23,994 nt of DNA from a virus: positions 1 through 23,994 of the IMG/VR virus record IMGVR_UViG_3300050121_000033. One strand, 5' to 3'. Made by a program: the position numbers and the translations under genes. Within the stretch, counting starts at the first letter, position 1, and the number at the start of each line of letters is the position of its first letter. Below are positions 2,942 to 22,893 of the stretch, one piece after another. The notes under the pieces were generated by a model. It worked only from the letters and a program-made list of their open reading frames with translations. It did no database searches and had not been told where the DNA came from.

Positions 2942-3636
2942 CCGATACCCGACAAGATGTTGAATCGACCGCTGGTGTCGATGCCGATTGGCATATCGAG
3001 CACGGGCGTCTGGTGGTTGCTGCGTTTCAGAACACGGCGAGCATTGGCACCTATCTGGATGGTGACGTTCGACAGTTGACGCCCTGGGGGCAGCAATTCC
3101 ACGGCCAGCGAGTATTCCATCGCCTTACGCGCACCCGGAGCCAGAGGATAATCCGTTTCAACGTCTACGAACTCGATCAACTGCTGCGCAAGCGGAAGAT
3201 GCAGTTCCAACAAGCCAGCAGGCACGGGGAACAGGTAAATCGTCCCGGATGGGTACCCACGGTTATAAAACAGTGCGCTCGGGTAACTCGACGGCGCAGT
3301 TTTCAGTTGAATCTGCTCATACTGAATCTGTTGGATGATATCCATCGGATAATCAATCCCGCTGGAACGACAAAACGCGCCTTCTTCTACTTTCTGCGGC
3401 ACAGGCATATCGATCTGCATGCCCGGGCCAATCGTGACGCTTTGCTGACCCGGCGTAAGTTGCAGAATCGACTCAGCTACCGTGGACACGTACAAATCCT
3501 CAGTGCGCCACGAGTCGATCATGGAATTGAGTACGCCTAAGGCGTCGGAAATCAACTCGCCGTCGAGCGATTCGCCCAACGCGCGCGTGCCTACAATCGT
3601 GTAGGCGCGGTTGATAATGTCAATTGCTTTTGACAT
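2938..3636 (-). CDS. P22 gp4-like tail accessory factor / head-completion protein
   Basis: 232 aa, longer than P22 gp4 (166 aa). The N-terminal half is helical: AIDIINRAYTIVGTRALGE, then DALGVLNSMIDSWRTED. The motif NSMIDSW plus the following SFTLTPGQQSVTIGPG-like stretch (here ILQLTPGQQSVTIGPG) is characteristic of the gp4/head-completion group in podoviruses. A later strand-rich section contains YPSGTIYLFPVPAG and PLAPGARKAMEYSLAVEL. The family forms a dodecameric ring beneath the portal that seals the packaged head. The start overlaps the end of the preceding small gene by 17 bases. The extra length relative to P22 sits at the C-terminus, as in many non-enteric relatives. Confidence 0.88.
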   Translation of the reverse strand: MSKAIDIINRAYTIVGTRALGESLDGELISDALGVLNSMIDSWRTEDLYVSTVAESILQLTPGQQSVTIGPGMQIDMPVPQKVEEGAFCRSSGIDYPMDIIQQIQYEQIQLKTAPSSYPSALFYNRGYPSGTIYLFPVPAGLLELHLPLAQQLIEFVDVETDYPLAPGARKAMEYSLAVELLPPGRQLSNVTIQIGANARRVLKRSNHQTPVLDMPIGIDTSGRFNILSGIG

Positions 3637-3859
3637 CGTCGATAGCCTTTTGCAGACGCTTCACGCCCCAACGCGGGCCCGGTTCGATGCCGAGGGATTT
3701 CGCTTCCTCGATCAATGCATCACGGTTGGCAGTATCTTCCTCGAATGCAGCAGGCGTTTCAGCCCAACCCTCCGATAAATGTTCGTCAACGTCATCCTGA
3801 GTGTGCACAATCTTGGCATCCTGCTCAGGGTGATATAGCCATTTTGGTAACTTTTCCAT
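3620..3859 (-). CDS. Small acidic protein with LEM/SAP-like C-terminal helices
   Basis: 79 aa. It begins MEKLPKWLYHPEQDAKIVHT, a segment often found at the start of small proteins encoded next to phage coat genes. The last 33 residues (DALIEEAKSLGIEPGPRWGV then KRLQKAIDDVKSN) look like a two-helix HeH/LEM or SAP-like unit, small folds often used for nucleic-acid or protein contact. The Shine-Dalgarno GGAGAG lies just upstream (TTTCGGAGAGACACATG). It sits between coat and the gp4-like gene, where P22 has no equivalent, and its 3' end overlaps the next start. Function unknown; a decoration, head-maturation or assembly role is only a positional guess. Confidence 0.82.
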   Translation of the reverse strand: MEKLPKWLYHPEQDAKIVHTQDDVDEHLSEGWAETPAAFEEDTANRDALIEEAKSLGIEPGPRWGVKRLQKAIDDVKSN

Positions 3860-3884
3860 GTGTCTCTCCGAAAGAAACGCCCAC

Positions 3885-3898
3885 CCCGGAAATCCGGG
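3885..3898 (-). other. Perfect hairpin after the coat gene
   Basis: CCCGGA-TT-TCCGGG on the minus strand, a 6-bp inverted repeat lying 14 bases past the coat stop codon and about 25 bases before the next start. It is not followed by a T run, so it is unlikely to be an intrinsic terminator. A stable hairpin here could protect the 3' end of the abundant coat mRNA after processing. Seen in sequence; function is inference. Confidence 0.4.
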
Positions 3899-3911
3899 AC
3901 GGACGGTCTCC

Positions 3912-5180
3912 TTAGTTGGTCAAGCGAGCGGCAAAGTCCGGCAGCACCAGTGCGGCGCCCCAAACGATGTCAAAACGCGAGATACGACGGTTATTGGTGA
4001 TATCGAAGCCGCGAACAAAGCGGAGTGACACGCCGTCATACGACGCACGAGAGGCCATATCCATACCGTTCGGCAGATCAAGATCGACCGAGACAAACTG
4101 GATGGCGTCTTTGTGCCAGATCAGGTTTTGCGCGTAGGACGTAGCAGCCGTACCCGTCATAACCGTGATCGCGGCATTGTCGGCAGGACGAGCCGTCACG
4201 TTCTGGTACGCACCGCCCGCAATGATGGCCGGAGCGATAACCAGGGTGGCGACGCCGGTACCATCGGACAATGCGTTGGCGGTGACCACGAACTCGCGCA
4301 AGGCACCCGTCGTTTGCTTGGTCTCAGGATTGACACCAAACACACCAGCTAGCGTAATCACGTCGCCAGCATTCAGGCGAAGTGCAGCAGCAGCCGTCCA
4401 GCCATCTGTAGCCAGCGACGTAGTATCGGCGCGCGGGTTATCGGTCGTGCCGGTGTTGATGATGCCTTGGTTGGCACCGTTCACCAGAGGCGTTCCACCC
4501 AGCGGCCCGACCGTGTGCACAGGCAAGTTCTGCGACATGAGGAAGTCAACGCCGAGGTTGGTCTTCATCAAGCCGGTCTTGTTCTGATCGCTGACCGTCT
4601 TCTGGTCATTGAACAGATTGCCCATGCCGCCCACGATCTTGCTGTTGGCAAGCGGCGTGAGCGCGGCCATGCGATCGCCATCGCGTGGAACAGCCAGGTT
4701 ATCGAGCAGCACAGCAGCATCCAGAATGTTCTGTGCGGCGTTCGGCACCGTACCAGGCGTACCGGCAAAGCTCGAAATGCCTTTGTAAATCTGCTGGCCG
4801 ATCTGGTAATCGAGCGTGGCAGCGATCTGCATGCCGGCAGGCTTGCAAAATCGGTTCTTGAAGTCCGCATCCAGGCTTCCGCCGTTACCTATGGCGGTCA
4901 CCAATTGAACGTCGGACACGTCAAAGTCGATGCCCAGCTCGGGATTGAGCGTGAGCGATACGGTCGGCTCGTTGGCGTCCTGAATGTTGACGGTCGGGCC
5001 GCTGCGGGTCGTGAACTTTATAGGCGAGCGGATGGCGAACGACGTACCGGGTTTGTAGCCACCAGAGGCATACATCTTCTGGTAGTCGGTACGCATGTTG
5101 CCAAGGAACGTGCTGTTGTTATGCGCGATACGCAGCACTTCGTTGGTGATGAGTTGCGAGGTCTTGAGGGTTGCGGTCAT
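3912..5180 (-). CDS. Major capsid protein, P22 gp5-like
   Basis: 422 aa, against 430 aa for P22 coat. The N-terminus (MTATLKTSQLITNEVLRIAH) leads into an HK97-type fold with NMRTDYQKMYASGGYKPGTS and the delta-domain/A-domain segments typical of the P22 coat family. Residues roughly 225-345 form a strand-rich insertion with GDVITLAGVFGVNPETKQTT and REFVVTANALSDG, corresponding to the P22 telokin-like insertion (I-) domain. Near the C-terminus come LIWHKDAIQFVSVDLDLP and VSLRFVRGFDITNNRRISRF, also typical. It follows portal and scaffold, the standard head order. It assembles around the scaffold into the procapsid and expands on packaging. Confidence 0.95.
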   Translation of the reverse strand: MTATLKTSQLITNEVLRIAHNNSTFLGNMRTDYQKMYASGGYKPGTSFAIRSPIKFTTRSGPTVNIQDANEPTVSLTLNPELGIDFDVSDVQLVTAIGNGGSLDADFKNRFCKPAGMQIAATLDYQIGQQIYKGISSFAGTPGTVPNAAQNILDAAVLLDNLAVPRDGDRMAALTPLANSKIVGGMGNLFNDQKTVSDQNKTGLMKTNLGVDFLMSQNLPVHTVGPLGGTPLVNGANQGIINTGTTDNPRADTTSLATDGWTAAAALRLNAGDVITLAGVFGVNPETKQTTGALREFVVTANALSDGTGVATLVIAPAIIAGGAYQNVTARPADNAAITVMTGTAATSYAQNLIWHKDAIQFVSVDLDLPNGMDMASRASYDGVSLRFVRGFDITNNRRISRFDIVWGAALVLPDFAARLTN

Positions 5181-11635: not shown

Positions 11636-12138
11636 TTTCCCTCTCCTATTTGATGCACACGCACCCTCACACTCGGCTCGTCCGAGTAGCGCTTACACAT
11701 ATCGATGTTCACGACCTGGCTGTCGTCCTTCCAAACCACGCCGTTCAACGCGTCGCAAATCATTTTGATAACGTTGTCTGCGTCAGGCTTTCCGGTGGGC
11801 AGCGACTCGCCAGTGCGCGCCGCCCGCTGCTTCTTGCCCGACCACGATGCTGGGATTTGCAGCGCCACATTCATGACCAGTCGCACCGGGCCGGTAATCA
11901 GCGGACGCCCTCGCATCGCCTGAGCCGCAAACAGCTTGACGACGCCCTCATAGTTCACCGTCTTCTCAGGGGCGTACATCATGGCCTGCCCGTTTCGGCT
12001 ACCGATCCGTGGACGACCCTTCGCCACCGGCTGGCCGGGAATGGTGAAAGACACCATTTCGACGGTTTGCGAATCTGTGCAATCTGCCTTCAGCGTCCCC
12101 GCGTTCGGATCGAGGGCGATTTCGGTGTGGTCGGTCAT
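11632..12138 (-). CDS. rusA: RusA-family Holliday junction resolvase
   Basis: 168 aa. After an acidic lead of about 28 residues comes the family core: MVSFTIPGQPVAKGRPRIGS (the 'G.P..K.RPR' block), then PTGKPDADNVIKMICDALNG with the metal-binding Asp pair in KPDADN, and VVWKDDSQVVNIDMCKRY with two further acidic residues. RusA dimers cut four-way junctions symmetrically, resolving recombination intermediates and branched concatemers before packaging. It is commonly found at the end of lambdoid replication/nin-type operons, as here. The N-terminal extension is longer than in E. coli RusA (about 120 aa), and an internal Met at about residue 28 (MVSFTIPG) is an alternative start, although the ATGA overlap favours the longer form. 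Confidence 0.92.
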   Translation of the reverse strand: MTDHTEIALDPNAGTLKADCTDSQTVEMVSFTIPGQPVAKGRPRIGSRNGQAMMYAPEKTVNYEGVVKLFAAQAMRGRPLITGPVRLVMNVALQIPASWSGKKQRAARTGESLPTGKPDADNVIKMICDALNGVVWKDDSQVVNIDMCKRYSDEPSVRVRVHQIGEGK

Positions 12139-12788
12139 GCTTCGTCCTTTTCGGATTCGAGTTGCGGCACCGATTGATCCAGATTGGTATGTACGCGGGT
12201 GAAGCTGATCGTCGGCTTGTCAGAGCCGTTCTCGAGCACCTTCTTGGCGACCTCGGGATTGCCAATCAGCACCGGGGGATCTGACGGAAAGCCCGACTGT
12301 GCATTCTGAGATTCGGCAATGCCAACCAGCGCGTGCGGATATTCACGGACATCGTTGCGCGCCTTGAAGCCGCGGTATCGGGCCTCAAACTCATTGCGTA
12401 TGAACGGCCATTCCTTCTCTTCTTTCGTGCCTAGTGCCACCCATCCGCCCATTTCCTGAATCACCGCGTGAATGATCGGGTCATCAAATGCCACCGTGGC
12501 GTAGGTGCCGATCTGCCGGATGCCCTTGTCGACTTTCGCCCAGGCCACCAGCGCGGAATCCTTGGTAGACCCCTGGAGCATCTTCACCACGTCGGCAGGC
12601 TTTGGCATGAACTGGCCGTTATCCGGGTTCACGCAATGCCGGTTCAACGCGTCTGCAACGGCTTCGTAGTCGAATGGCGTTGCCGCTTGCCACCAGACGT
12701 TCAGCGCAAACTCGGATGTATCCTGTCGATAGAAGGCGAACACCGCCGCGATCAGTTTCAGGAACTTGGGTTTTTGGTCGGGGGTCAT
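12135..12788 (-). CDS. DUF6475-like replication-associated protein
   Basis: 217 aa. The N-terminal 70 residues (KFLKLIAAVFAFYRQDTSEF, then NVWWQAATPFDYEAVADALN and GQFMPKPADVVKMLQG) match my memory of the DUF6475 domain in beta-proteobacterial phages. This resembles the compact helical N-terminal segment of helicase-loader-type proteins. The middle part, AKVDKGIRQIGTYATVAFDD and so on, is followed by a variable, probably flexible tail. It starts by ATGA overlap with the O-like initiator gene, the place where lambda has P (DnaB helicase loader). A P-like role is therefore plausible but rests on context; no ATPase motif is present. Confidence 0.75.
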   Translation of the reverse strand: MTPDQKPKFLKLIAAVFAFYRQDTSEFALNVWWQAATPFDYEAVADALNRHCVNPDNGQFMPKPADVVKMLQGSTKDSALVAWAKVDKGIRQIGTYATVAFDDPIIHAVIQEMGGWVALGTKEEKEWPFIRNEFEARYRGFKARNDVREYPHALVGIAESQNAQSGFPSDPPVLIGNPEVAKKVLENGSDKPTISFTRVHTNLDQSVPQLESEKDEA

Positions 12789-13612
12789 AGCGAATTCCGT
12801 AACATGCGTTCAACTACGGCTTGGTTGCTGGCTTCCAGGGCCTCTTGCTTGTTCATGCCTGGATGGGCAGGACCAGCGCGCGACTGAACCCATGAGGCGT
12901 CGAAGGATTGCCAGCCACGCTCGATGCATTTCCTCAAAGCGTTATCAACGCTCAACCCTGCGATATCGGCCTCACGTCTGATTCCAGCCATTGCGAGTTC
13001 GGTCAACGGGGCGCGCTTGCTTTTCCGGATTGAAAGAAATTCGTTTGCAGTTTGGGAAGCGACACCAAACTTTTTCAGGTCGGAAACCGAGAGCGACGAA
13101 ACACGCGCAGCGGGTTTAGGTTCTTTCTTTTCTGTTTTCTTATCTTTATCTTTCTCTTTATCTTCTTCTTTATCTTCTTCTTTATCTAGCGTGACACTGC
13201 GTGACTCATCGTGACATTGCTGATCGGCAGGTTCGGAGCCTTGCAAACGAGCACGCTCACGTTGCTCCCTTTTCCTCTGTGCAGCGGACTTTGCCCCGGT
13301 AGATTCGTCGCCAGAGTCCTCTCTTTTAGGCTGGCGGAGTTCCCATCCTGACAGCCTAATGCCATCCAAAACGCGACCTTGCATCGCGGCCAAAATCGCC
13401 TTGATAACCTCTTCTGTCACGTCGAGTGCGCTTGCTAAATCTTCGTGCGTGACAGTGGCGTGACCGCGCGTGACGTTGCGTGACGCGTCCACTAGAAGGT
13501 GCAGATACACCGAAAGCACAAGCGAAATCGGCTGGTTCGCGATTCGAGCAACGGTCCGCCATTTCGGATCGTTGGGCATGTCATGCCAAAGGCGGAGCCA
13601 TTGATTCGACAT
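12785..13612 (-). CDS. Lambda O-like replication initiator
   Basis: 275 aa. The first 95 residues resemble a winged-helix DNA-binding region (MSNQWLRLWHDMPNDPKWRT, then HEDLASALDVTEEVIKAILA). A charged, low-complexity linker spans roughly residues 100-175, including a Lys/Glu/Asp tract (KEEDKEEDKEKDKDKK) at about 142-165. The C-terminal 95 residues (SDLKKFGVASQTANEFLSI, then ALRKCIERGWQSFDASWV) form a helical domain like those that recruit the helicase partner. The gene contains its own candidate origin: iterons and an AT-rich tract, annotated separately, as lambda O contains ori. It lacks a strong ribosome site and starts 4 bases past the GIY-YIG stop, so it is probably translated by coupling. 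Confidence 0.85.
   Translation of the reverse strand: MSNQWLRLWHDMPNDPKWRTVARIANQPISLVLSVYLHLLVDASRNVTRGHATVTHEDLASALDVTEEVIKAILAAMQGRVLDGIRLSGWELRQPKREDSGDESTGAKSAAQRKREQRERARLQGSEPADQQCHDESRSVTLDKEEDKEEDKEKDKDKKTEKKEPKPAARVSSLSVSDLKKFGVASQTANEFLSIRKSKRAPLTELAMAGIRREADIAGLSVDNALRKCIERGWQSFDASWVQSRAGPAHPGMNKQEALEASNQAVVERMLRNSL
13121..13187. other. AT-rich, strand-asymmetric tract: candidate duplex-unwinding element of the phage origin
   Basis: 67 bp made almost only of T and C with some A on the plus strand; I count about one quarter G+C and a single G. It contains tandem TTTATC and TTCTTC units. On the coding (minus) strand it is purine-rich and encodes the Lys/Glu/Asp tract of the O-like protein. 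It directly abuts the iteron cluster at 13189-13215. In lambda the A/T-rich asymmetric region lies just 3' of the iterons inside O and is where the duplex opens. The same order is seen here; the function is inferred. Confidence 0.65.
13189..13215. repeat. Origin iterons, cluster A (3 copies)
   Basis: Heptamers GCGTGAC at 13189-13195 and 13199-13205 and a near copy TCGTGAC at 13209-13215, each exactly 10 bp apart, so all face the same side of the helix. They lie inside the O-like gene and touch the AT-rich tract. Phased direct repeats next to an AT-rich element are the signature of initiator-binding iterons. Confidence 0.65.
13447..13484. repeat. Origin iterons, cluster B (4 copies)
   Basis: Four exact GCGTGAC heptamers at 13447-13453, 13458-13464, 13468-13474 and 13478-13484, spaced 11, 10 and 10 bp. 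They have the same orientation and sequence as cluster A about 230 bp away, and encode part of the winged-helix region (residues 43-56) of the O-like protein. Helical phasing and exact repetition despite different reading-frame positions argue for selection on DNA, not on protein. Confidence 0.65.
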
Positions 13613-13615
13613 GGG

Positions 13616-14035
13616 CTAGTCAACCAGCATTGAGACAACGTTCGACTGAGGGCCCACCTGGATCGACGCGCGCAATGCAGCTTGTTCGCGGTTAAACGCA
13701 TCTTCTTGGACATCAACCAAATGTTCGAAATCTGGATCCATCCATTTGGCTTGGGTATCGAAAGAAGAAAGCGCCCAATAGATTTCACGTGCCTGGCAAT
13801 GGAAGAATTCTCGATTGGTTGCGATCCGCTCATTCACCATCATCTGATGGGCGTCAGACTCAACCTCCTCCATGTTGTCGACAGCGATAAACATCATCAC
13901 CTGAAATGAACAAGGGACGGATGTCGAATTACTCAACTCGTCCGCTCTTTTAAAGGGGCTGCGTTCAGTCATCCCAATCTTGTAGACATTGGGCATGTAG
14001 GGGTTGCTTAATGCGTAGACGAATCCTTGTGTCAT
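13616..14035 (-). CDS. GIY-YIG nuclease-family protein (T5orf172/MUG113-like)
   Basis: 139 aa. The N-terminal 80 residues show the family pattern: FVYALSNPYMPNVYKIGMT (a GIY-YIG variant, VYA...YKIG), the Arg in PFKRADELSNSTSVP, and a late acidic/aromatic block NERIATNREFFHC with the catalytic-type Glu. The C-terminal 50 residues are helical and less conserved. T5orf172 domains occur in phage and bacterial proteins with assumed DNA-cutting or DNA-binding functions; most are untested. The start follows AGGAAGAGGT and overlaps the DUF1364 stop (ATGA). The gene lies just before the O-like initiator, so a role in replication or junction processing, or a selfish homing-type insertion, are both possible. 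Confidence 0.82.
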   Translation of the reverse strand: MTQGFVYALSNPYMPNVYKIGMTERSPFKRADELSNSTSVPCSFQVMMFIAVDNMEEVESDAHQMMVNERIATNREFFHCQAREIYWALSSFDTQAKWMDPDFEHLVDVQEDAFNREQAALRASIQVGPQSNVVSMLVD

Positions 14036-16163: not shown

Positions 16164-16214
16164 ATATTAGCGTAACGCTCATGTGGCGACAAGCATTTTC
16201 GCAAGCGTAACGCT
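16164..16214 (-). promoter_or_regulatory. Cro-operon promoter and operator pair (PR/OR-like)
   Basis: Two copies of the 11-bp palindrome AGCGTaACGCT, at 16169-16179 and 16204-16214, are 35 bp apart. The leftward promoter has -10 TAATAT (complement of 16164-16169) and -35 TTGTCG (complement of 16187-16192) with a 17-bp spacer. Operator 1 covers the -10 and spacer, so a bound repressor would block RNA polymerase. Operator 2 ends at 16214, next to where a -35 for the rightward repressor promoter would lie. A matching pair is found at 17415-17460. Confidence 0.8.
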
Positions 16215-17360: not shown

Positions 17361-17383
17361 CCACCTTCGGGTGGTTTTTTTTT
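17361..17383 (+). terminator. Strong intrinsic terminator
   Basis: CCACC-TTCG-GGTGG stem-loop with an extra-stable TTCG loop, followed by nine T's (17375-17383). It ends the repressor-lipoprotein transcript and insulates the rightward operon promoter just downstream. Confidence 0.92.
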
Positions 17384-17414
17384 CGTCAAAAATTCTCAAG
17401 TTACAAATTATCTT

Positions 17415-17465
17415 AGCGTTACGCTTAGATAAAGCTTGCGCTACTCATGAGCGTTACGCTAACCT
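17415..17465 (+). promoter_or_regulatory. Rightward early promoter with operator pair (PL/OL-like)
   Basis: Two copies of AGCGTtACGCT, at 17415-17425 and 17450-17460, again 35 bp apart. The promoter-proximal copy sits in CATGAGCGTTACGCTAA, identical over 17 bases to the reverse complement of the copy at the Cro promoter. A -35-like TTGCGC (17436-17441) and -10-like TAACCT (17460-17465) with an 18-bp spacer lie as in the Cro promoter, with operator overlapping the spacer and -10. It would drive the operon starting at 17503. The -10 is poorer than at the Cro promoter. Confidence 0.75.
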
Positions 17466-17502
17466 TCGTTCATCCCCTCCCCAACCATCCAGCGAGAACG
17501 AG

Positions 17503-18105
17503 ATGAACACAATCCAAATCCAAATCAAGCACCGCCTCACTGAGGTCGTCCTATTCACGGCTGAGATTCCGAGCGATACGCCGAGCGGGTTGCGGACGCG
17601 TGTTGCGCTCGAACAGGCGACGGCGGCGAAAGCGATCCTGCGCGATGCGGACCTGCGCGATGCGAACCTGGGCGGTGCGAACCTGGGCGGTGCGAACCTG
17701 GGCGGTGCGAACCTGATCGGTGCGAACCTGATCGATGCGAACCTGATCGGTGCGAACCTGCGCCGTGCGAACCTGAGCGATGCGAACCTGAGCGCAATCC
17801 GCGACGACATGTTTGCAGTGCTCTCCGCCGCGCCCAATGAAGTGCAGGGCCTAATCACCGCACTGAAAGACGGCAAGGTAGACGGCTCTACGTACGAGGG
17901 CGAATGCGCTTGCCTTGTCGGCACCATCGCTAACGTACGCGGGAAAAATTACCAAGAACTTGGCGATCTACATCCCGACTCGACGAGGCCGATAGAGAAA
18001 TTTTTCTTTGGCATCAGCAAGGGCCATACGCCCGAGAACAACCCTTTCAGCAGGCTCGCGCTGGAATGGGCCGAAGAGTGGGTTACTGCTAATCCGGCCG
18101 CATAG
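17503..18105 (+). CDS. Pentapeptide-repeat protein, first gene of the rightward operon
   Basis: 200 aa from the ATG at 17503; an upstream reading from 17371 would include terminator and operator DNA and is rejected. After 42 residues (MNTIQIQIKHRLTEVVLFTA and more) come about ten A(D/N)LXX pentapeptides (LRDADLRDANLGGANLGGAN and on, to LSDANLSAIRDD), which form a quadrilateral beta-helix of about 2.5 turns. The C-terminal half (DDMFAVLSAAPNEVQGLITA, then GTIANVRGKNYQELGDLHPD) is a separate globular region, also seen in other phage pentapeptide proteins. Some pentapeptide proteins mimic DNA and protect gyrase, but those have longer helices. Immediate-early expression under repressor control suggests a host-takeover role, unproven. 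Confidence 0.85.
   Translation: MNTIQIQIKHRLTEVVLFTAEIPSDTPSGLRTRVALEQATAAKAILRDADLRDANLGGANLGGANLGGANLIGANLIDANLIGANLRRANLSDANLSAIRDDMFAVLSAAPNEVQGLITALKDGKVDGSTYEGECACLVGTIANVRGKNYQELGDLHPDSTRPIEKFFFGISKGHTPENNPFSRLALEWAEEWVTANPAA
17641..17790 (+). repeat. Ten tandem 15-bp repeats inside the pentapeptide gene
   Basis: Ten in-frame units of the form NNCGRTGCGAACCTG, three of them identical (GGCGGTGCGAACCTG, from 17671, 17686 and 17701). The near-identity at DNA level, including synonymous sites, points to recent expansion by slippage or unequal recombination. The number of turns in the beta-helix may therefore vary between related phages. Confidence 0.9.
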
Positions 18106-21890: not shown

Positions 21891-22123
21891 CACGCCAAGG
21901 TCAATCCAAGCGCGGAAGTGTCTCTGAGGCCATCGTTAATGTGATCGTCGGCTACGGCATCAATATGACCGCTAACGCAGTGCTGTTCCCGCTGTTCGGG
22001 TGGCACATATCGCTGCGGCAAAACATCGCCCTCGGCGTCTTCTACACCGCAATATCGCTCGTGCGCTCGTACTGCCTGCGCCGCACTTTCAACTGGATCG
22101 GCTTCGGCCGTAAAGGAATATGA
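21887..22123 (+). CDS. DUF7220-like small membrane protein
   Basis: 78 aa. A polar start (MTRQGQSKRGSVSEAIVN) leads to two hydrophobic spans, about 18-36 (IVNVIVGYGINMTANAVLFP) and 44-62 (ISLRQNIALGVFYTAISLVR), and a basic end RSYCLRRTFNWIGFGRKG. This 'E...N...G......VFPLFG..... N......T..S..RSY.LRR.FN' pattern is common in phages and is, I believe, classed as DUF7220. Role unknown. The stop codon overlaps the methyltransferase start. Confidence 0.8.
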   Translation: MTRQGQSKRGSVSEAIVNVIVGYGINMTANAVLFPLFGWHISLRQNIALGVFYTAISLVRSYCLRRTFNWIGFGRKGI

Positions 22124-22893
22124 ATGAGCTGTATATTCAGCGCCGCGATGGTGAAGGCTTGCGGGAACTCGCGCTCTTCGCTGGTGCCGGCGGAGGCATC
22201 CTCGGCGGTCACCTCCTTGGATGGCGAACCGTGTGCGCAGTTGAACGTGATGCCTACGCCGCACAAGTTCTCGCGCAACGACAAAACGATGGATGCCTCA
22301 GACCATTCCCGATTTGGTCTGACGTGTGCAGTTTTGACGGCCGACCGTGGCGCGGCATTGTTGATGTCGTATCTGGCGGCTTTCCGTGCCAGGACATCAG
22401 CGCGTCTGGCAACGGCAAAGGACTCTCTGGAGAACGAAGTGGACTCTGGACGGAAATGTTCCGGATCATTCGCGAGGTGGAGCCCGAATACGTTTTCGTG
22501 GAAAACAGCCCAATTCTCACTTCTAGGGGGCTTGGAACCGTTCTTGGAGATCTGGCCTCGATCGGGTTCGATGCGCAGTGGGATGTGTTTTCAGCAGCCG
22601 ACTTCGGCGCCGATCACCTACGCGAACGTATCTGGATTGTTGCCCACTCCAACAAAATCCTGGGCTCGCCGCGGGCCTGGCCTAAGCAACAATCTGAACC
22701 GCTTGCGCATGACCCTATGGGTTACGCAAACCTGTCTGGCGATAGTCGCAGCCGTTGGGTGGCGCTGGCCTCCCAGTTTCGTCGAATGGATGATGGGATG
22801 GCCCATTCAGTGGACCGCACTGCGGCCCTTGGAAACGGCCAAGTTCCACGAGTGGCAGCAGCAGCATTCACCATTCTCAGCAATCGATTCTAA
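22120..22893 (+). CDS. C5 cytosine DNA methyltransferase (short form)
   Basis: 257 aa. Motif I LALFAGAGGGILGGHL for AdoMet, the motif II acid in AVERD, motif IV GGFPCQDIS with nucleophile Cys90, motif VI as FVENS (128-130), motif VIII RERIWIV (168-174), and motif X GNGQVP (238-243) are all present and in order, so catalysis is plausible. Only about 60 residues lie between motifs VIII and X, so the target-recognition region is unusually small. It would methylate phage DNA, perhaps to evade host restriction. The ATG at 22120 overlaps the previous stop (ATGA), but the SD (AAGGA) is only 2 bases away. The entire gene is overlapped in the +1 frame by the ORF at 22124-22906. Confidence 0.88.
   Translation: MNELYIQRRDGEGLRELALFAGAGGGILGGHLLGWRTVCAVERDAYAAQVLAQRQNDGCLRPFPIWSDVCSFDGRPWRGIVDVVSGGFPCQDISASGNGKGLSGERSGLWTEMFRIIREVEPEYVFVENSPILTSRGLGTVLGDLASIGFDAQWDVFSAADFGADHLRERIWIVAHSNKILGSPRAWPKQQSEPLAHDPMGYANLSGDSRSRWVALASQFRRMDDGMAHSVDRTAALGNGQVPRVAAAAFTILSNRF

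Follow-up and report, generated by a model that had tools for sequence, protein, structure and literature searches.

A probable replication origin made of two phased iteron blocks within the coding sequence of a phage O-like initiator gene

Introduction

Why would a 7-bp repeat recur about once per helical turn in two separate parts of one protein-coding gene? The question is raised by the window, that is, the whole 23,994-bp stretch of DNA analysed here (virus record IMGVR_UViG_3300050121_000033, positions 1 to 23,994). An earlier note, made from the letters of this DNA, had claimed a GCGTGAC repeat in seven copies, one of them altered to TCGTGAC, that form two clusters with a spacing of 10 or 11 bp, and had read them, with an adjoining AT-rich tract, as a lambda-style origin inside an O-like gene. 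In lambda and the Stx phages, as described in the portion of the source consulted, iterons bound by the initiator (four in lambda, six in Stx phages) and an AT-rich tract lie in the middle of gene O of a temperate phage (PMC7466680). Judged from sequence comparisons, the two iteron clusters and the tract studied here very probably form a theta-type origin within the initiator's own coding sequence. These comparisons directly support the array itself, its conservation at the level of DNA, a joint switch of the two clusters from one repeat class to another, low duplex stability beside cluster 2, and the location of the repeats in a loop and a linker of the encoded protein.

Results

Phased repeats lie in two places within an initiator gene

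The features of the locus are as follows.

12785–13612, minus strand: O-like replication initiator gene (275 aa) with the putative origin inside, assigned from PHROG profiles and an AlphaFold2 model
13447–13484, plus strand: iteron cluster 1, four GCGTGAC spaced 11, 10 and 10 bp; encodes residues 43–56
13416–13420, minus strand: inverted iteron core GTGAC after cluster 1; codons 65–66, at the start of the predicted recognition helix
13189–13215, plus strand: iteron cluster 2, GCGTGAC, GCGTGAC and TCGTGAC spaced 10 and 10 bp; encodes linker residues 133–142
13121–13187, minus strand: strand rich in A+T and in purines when read in the coding direction; encodes a Lys/Asp/Glu linker and is a candidate DNA unwinding element
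13575–13587, no strand: palindrome GGCATGACATGCC, codons 9–13, near the gene start
12135–12788, minus strand: DUF6475 gene (PF20081), next downstream of the initiator gene

Exact positions bear out the number, sequence and spacing of the repeats as first described: GCGTGAC occurs on the plus strand at 13189, 13199, 13447, 13458, 13468 and 13478, and TCGTGAC at 13209. Read in the coding direction, cluster 1 consists of GTCACGC copies spaced 10, 10 and 11 bp. The inverted core that follows it was absent from the earlier note. The 7-mer with one mismatch allowed is not enriched across the window (114 matches against 101 expected), so that the signal resides in the phased clustering of the repeat. 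In 20,000 synonymous redraws with the protein held fixed, a null that, like the class B and class C motif definitions used below, was set after the data had been inspected, seven GTCAC copies arose 3 times and five 10/11-bp links never arose; 20,000 synonymous permutations within the gene produced neither.

Profile matches of the encoded protein are to phrog_21423, phrog_3729 ("replication initiation protein") and phrog_678 ("replication initiation O-like"), with phrog_3729 aligning to residues 1–161 at an E-value of 4.3e-60, and searches of Pfam and NCBIfam returned no match at E≤0.001. The AlphaFold2 model (mean pLDDT 80.7, pTM 0.43) predicts an N-terminal winged helix at about residues 16–87 (helices 16–25, 29–45, 56–63 and 67–77, and a hairpin at about 78–87), a disordered linker at 130–164 (pLDDT below 50), and a helical C-terminal domain at 176–275. 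The best structural match is to the winged helix of CRP (Z 8.2, rmsd 2.4, 71 residues aligned), a fold that is common; Foldseek gave no match at E≤0.001, and a sequence search of the PDB with the family profile found no relative (best E 0.52). The repeats had been placed in the winged helix and the linker. In the model the linker assignment stands for cluster 2, as it does for the tract, whereas cluster 1 falls in a loop of the predicted DNA-binding domain, between helices 29–45 and 56–63, and not in the wing.

Both clusters carry the same repeat class in relatives

Relatives were collected by scans (the best 80 each of 412, at least 584, 419 and 440 matches, and 21 of 21 from another scan), from the matches of a DNA-pattern scan, and from a few phage records. 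The resulting 467 records contain 197 distinct ORFs, 182 of them complete with at least 183 codons, which reduce to 52 non-redundant relatives at less than 90% identity. Both clusters carry one shared repeat class in 49 of the 52, and none is discordant, although these are not 49 independent events because switches of class are few (5 changes, over all labels, on a weakly resolved tree). Class A, GTCAC(GC), accounts for 36 relatives, class B, GAACGC, for 10 and class C, GTAACGC, for 3. The exceptions are one relative with class B repeats, as defined here, in cluster 1 only (L039) and two without arrays of any of these classes (L102 and L319). Cores of the GTCAC type typically lie at ORF offsets 128, 138, 148 and 159 and then near 386–430. 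Across the 49 relatives, successive spacings are 10 bp in 90 + 101 cases, 11 bp in 38 + 19, and other values in 22, and the start-to-start distance from cluster 1 to cluster 2 is 179–319 bp. Relatives that keep the O-like protein but scramble the spacing, which had been named as evidence against an origin, were thus not found among these 49, in which 10/11-bp spacing prevails.

Because the motif definitions followed inspection of the data, we added a test that presupposes no motif. Of the 52 relatives, 50 have a 5-mer with 10/11-bp links in the cluster 1 region, and in 48 of these 50 the best such 5-mer recurs at least twice in the cluster 2 region, with 176 copies in the cluster 2 region, 9 in flanks and 11 in the remaining 16,774 bp. 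Among 226 control ORFs examined, which may include spurious frames, 51 have a linked 5-mer and 11 of these were positive.

Several observations indicate that it is the DNA that is conserved here. The iterons occupy all three reading frames in classes A and B and two in class C, and the peptides that the arrays encode differ by class (SRNVTRGH, NATERGRT and TQSNAGVT), which upholds the earlier view that protein repetition does not explain the repeats. A comparison of synonymous sites, which the earlier note had proposed, places the iteron codons among the most strongly constrained of 82 columns: in the sample, the 30 of 36 class-A relatives that share the peptide, S44 is TCA, V47 GTC, G50 GGT, H51 CAC and V54 GTC in 30 of 30 each. 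Taken together, the use of multiple frames and the invariance of synonymous codons argue that the DNA and not the peptide is conserved. The strongest synonymous constraint among the 82 columns lies elsewhere, at the Asp11 codon within GGCATGACATGCC, which is GAC in 36/36 class-A relatives, and this palindrome is possibly an extra site. The inverted core is found 33 nt past the last cluster 1 core in 26 of the 36 class-A relatives, the V65 codon is GTG in 30 of 31, and in the 13 relatives of classes B and C the repeat proper to each never occurs inverted at that place.

The protein varies together with the repeats. The class-specific residues are 31, 33, 42, 65, 66, 67, 69 and 91, and outside the loop the columns that differ most between classes A and B include 65, 66, 67 and 69, where the predicted recognition helix begins. 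This pattern fits co-evolution of a reader and its site, with the reservations that class switches are few on the weakly resolved tree and that residues 65–66 overlap the inverted GTGAC, so that part of their class difference could be driven by the DNA. The loop encoded by cluster 1 is longer by 7 residues in two relatives (L044 and L098), which corresponds to 21 bp or two iterons, and it is longer still in class C. A DNA-binding C-terminal domain of the DnaT type is present in 11 of 49 relatives.

We note that one of the relatives without class A, B or C arrays (L102, positions 3001–4302, from Pantoea) carries a different repeat, CTACG/CGTAG, at two other sites, that GATACA repeats come after the second of these, and that CTACG/CGTAG is possibly a fourth iteron class. 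We considered whether this protein is instead a fusion of an initiator DNA-binding domain to a GIY-YIG nuclease, lacking iterons, similar to Odn of ICP1 as described in the part of PMC8263062 available to us. We rejected that assignment: the GIY-YIG match of its linker (E 0.012–0.024) is below the Pfam cut-off, a C-terminus of the helicase-loader type is kept, and repeats occur in two places in the gene.

An unstable, strand-asymmetric tract adjoins cluster 2

The tract beside cluster 2 has the composition first reported for it, a 67-bp, nearly one-quarter G+C pyrimidine strand (G+C 0.239; 91% pyrimidine on the plus strand). Of all 60-bp segments in the contig, both the one with the lowest duplex stability (start 13129) and the one with the greatest strand asymmetry (start 13124) lie inside it. 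In all 49 relatives the 60 nt past cluster 2 have a lower G+C content than the remainder of the ORF (mean 0.376 vs 0.557), and in 45 of 49 they are richer in purines. In every one of the 49, the 60-bp segment of lowest stability in the ORF begins between −31 and +25 nt relative to where the last cluster 2 iteron ends. Codon choice in the tract is shifted to A+T. Specifically, Asp is encoded by GAT and GAC in a ratio of 193:12, compared with 419:436 elsewhere, Lys by AAA and AAG at 156:23, compared with 328:288, and Thr by ACA in 85 of 108 cases, compared with 122 of 588. This codon choice, together with the low duplex stability beside cluster 2, suggests that the linker codons, at least, serve the DNA, and so supports at the codon level the proposal that the linker exists because the origin does.

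Other indicators were also examined. The GC skew, another check proposed earlier, does not turn at the gene in the window. The detrended skew extremes of one complete relative lie at 30,500 and 10,614, with the gene at 20.0 kb, and those of a second at 18,015 and 31,895, with the gene at 22.4–23.4 kb. GC skew therefore lends the origin no support. Nor do the sequences point to a host-factor site: among the 49 relatives, 2 have an exact DnaA box and none has the IHF consensus. Two circular records that contain the genes and are labelled as plasmids (CP137943.1 and NC_015459.1) are phage genomes with integrases and are therefore weak evidence for autonomous replication.

The array is associated with the initiator gene

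A DNA-pattern scan of viral contigs showed how closely the array follows the gene: among at least 119 stretches listed, 111 encode the O-like protein on the same strand, many of these being near-copies from E. coli prophages, and the other 8 lie outside such genes and are mostly intergenic. These eight, GTCAC arrays with 10, 10 and 11-bp spacing that do not fall within a detected initiator homologue, occur at L113 2003, L163 5046, L197 5270, L200 6833 and L201 1154, and in L157, L160 and L216. All 7 whole records checked have the array in the initiator gene and nowhere else. Where the relationship is limited to the C-terminal half, the N-terminal domain is a different one, and the gene has different repeats or none.

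A comparable arrangement is found in one such group related through the C-terminal half, a second initiator family, phrog_2509, in which 39 of 41 non-redundant members have at least two copies of TAACG/CGTTA in both of the places that hold the clusters here (142 and 187 copies in the two places, compared with 24 in the other 20,730 bp). A purine-rich tract follows the repeats, with purines above those elsewhere in 37 of 40. Comparison of the N-terminal profiles of the two families gave a probability of 18.5 and an E-value of 0.0013.

Discussion

The reading that we favour, an origin within the initiator gene, has to be weighed against three others. According to one, the O-like protein binds the iterons for control (autorepression, handcuffing or a transcription roadblock) and not for initiation, the AT-rich tract being an independent feature of the linker. 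Iterons in plasmids also control copy number, and cluster 1, some 180–320 bp from cluster 2, may have a control role of this sort; however, in all 49 relatives cluster 2 directly adjoins the part of the ORF with the lowest duplex stability, and in 7/7 records the gene holds the only array, with none at a promoter or any other site, which makes control alone highly improbable. We consider it less probable still that the arrays are bound by another protein (a neighbour's product, a host factor or a partition protein) for partition, packaging or recombination. The repeat clusters of ParR centromeres, whose iterons ParR binds, do share the 10–11-bp spacing, and a T5orf172 nuclease gene adjoins the initiator gene. 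Yet the first residues of the predicted recognition helix vary with repeat class, the array accompanies the initiator gene in 111 of the at least 119 DNA matches listed, and it stays in place while C-terminal halves and downstream genes vary.

That the repeats arose as a side effect of a conserved peptide, S-R-N-V-T-R-G-H-x-x-V-T, together with a linker rich in Lys, Asp and Glu is scarcely credible: although cluster 1 does lie within a well-conserved peptide region, synonymous codons are invariant, the iterons fall in different frames and peptides, and a phased array arose in 0 of 20,000 synonymous nulls.

If the locus is an origin, we infer binding by the O-like protein, melting, helicase loading, theta mode and a role for cluster 1. 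The N-terminal winged helix would bind the 7-bp iterons, and their recurrence once per helical turn would place several monomers on one face of the DNA. The AT-rich, purine/pyrimidine-asymmetric tract abutting cluster 2 would then melt, and cluster 1, about 180–320 bp off, may provide a second platform, either for looping or for control by pairing. The C-terminal domain, carried on a disordered linker that the origin itself encodes, would recruit the helicase machinery. The product of the downstream DUF6475 gene, which has a weak match to the helicase loader profile phrog_2289 (1e-4), is from its sequence a candidate P-like helicase loader.

The plan of this locus recalls several known systems. 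As with the lambda origin in O, iterons and an adjoining AT-rich tract lie in that order inside an initiator gene (PMC7466680, as excerpted), a likeness of sequence anatomy, and to this extent the term lambda-style is apt. It does not extend to family or layout, since the lambda O family of Pfam (E≤0.001) is absent from the window protein and from all 49 aligned relatives, the repeats form two blocks 179–319 bp apart in the 49 relatives rather than a single block, one block falls where the DNA-binding domain is encoded, and the repeats are 7 bp long at 10/11-bp spacing and switch class. In the excerpts consulted on rep of pSK41, of the RepA_N type, a winged-helix N-terminal domain binds Rep boxes inside rep, the origin encodes a central linker, the C-terminal domain is separate, and pPR9 differs in its N-terminal domain and its origin jointly (PMC5703833). 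The O-like protein is predicted to share the winged-helix N-terminal domain and the origin-encoded linker. However, RepA_N proteins belong to plasmids of staphylococci and other Firmicutes, Rep boxes are described, in those excerpts, only centrally in rep, and Pfam RepA_N (E≤0.001) matched neither the window protein nor the 49 relatives.

Phage P1 also has an origin, oriL, in its initiator gene repL, and synonymous changes to the AT-rich region there inhibit replication in cis, according to the sections available (PMC9948254). The window protein (phrog_21423/3729) is of a different family from P1 RepL (phrog_2418), and a scan of P1 repL found no linked 6-mer array. The DNA-binding domain and iterons of the RepA/ori of PLE, the Vibrio satellites, are reported in the accessible text to covary as modules with the C-terminal domain kept; unlike the origin proposed here, the PLE ori is intergenic and has three semi-palindromic iterons of about 30 bp (PMC8263062). 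For phage KIRK, a putative lambda-like origin in ORF43 is mentioned in the part of the report seen (PMC7924643). In the open-licence literature searched, part of it in excerpt, we recognised no earlier description of the present array. Given this, and given the failed family tests, the separated blocks, the 7-bp repeats at helical pitch and the class switches, we regard the locus as a new form of a known origin plan.

A broader idea, to which we give somewhat less than an even chance, is that the two-block origin occupies both permissive segments of the protein, the loop and the linker, so that the site dictates part of its reader's structure. The array and loop would grow by two iterons at a time (21 bp, or 7 codons), holding both phase and frame, the blocks would switch with the recognition helix, and the gene would be a self-contained, swappable replicon of discrete classes that could set prophage incompatibility.

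Relatives of the initiator gene are detected at the DNA level in 2,128 of 5,426 complete E. coli genomes, a count of partial gene matches, none covering 80% of the query, and not of arrays; relatives also occur in phages of Pseudomonas, Aeromonas and Escherichia. Their annotation is often only hypothetical, "primosomal protein I" or "phage replisome organizer". Discrete repeat classes in a recognisable origin would allow phage origins to be marked directly in metagenomes, and the natural variants allow tests of co-evolution between initiator and site. They also open the question of whether repeat class decides which prophages can co-replicate. The locus is, moreover, a clear example of a protein sequence constrained by a function of the DNA.

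Some further observations concern the surroundings of the gene. A RusA gene also lies downstream, and upstream are the T5orf172 gene, a YbcO-type nuclease and NinB. The T5orf172 gene (GIY-YIG type; 13616–14035, minus strand) is immediately upstream of the initiator gene; ICP1, as described in the excerpted source, has a T5orf172 nuclease, joined to a RepA-like domain, that cleaves the origin of a satellite (PMC8263062). A 36,047-bp record (L002, IMGVR_UViG_3300050120_000032) carries an identical initiator (100% over 275 aa) and is probably a longer copy of the same phage or of a very near one. GCGTAAC/GCGTTAC sites at 16170 and 16205 and at 17416 and 17451 form two pairs, with 35 bp within each, and are operator-like, near a YdaS-like repressor region. 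The ORF at 17371–18105 (plus strand) has what we take to be ANLGGANLGGANL-type pentapeptide repeats, and the ORF at 22120–22893 (plus strand), with the motif GGFPCQDIS, presumably encodes a DNA cytosine methyltransferase.
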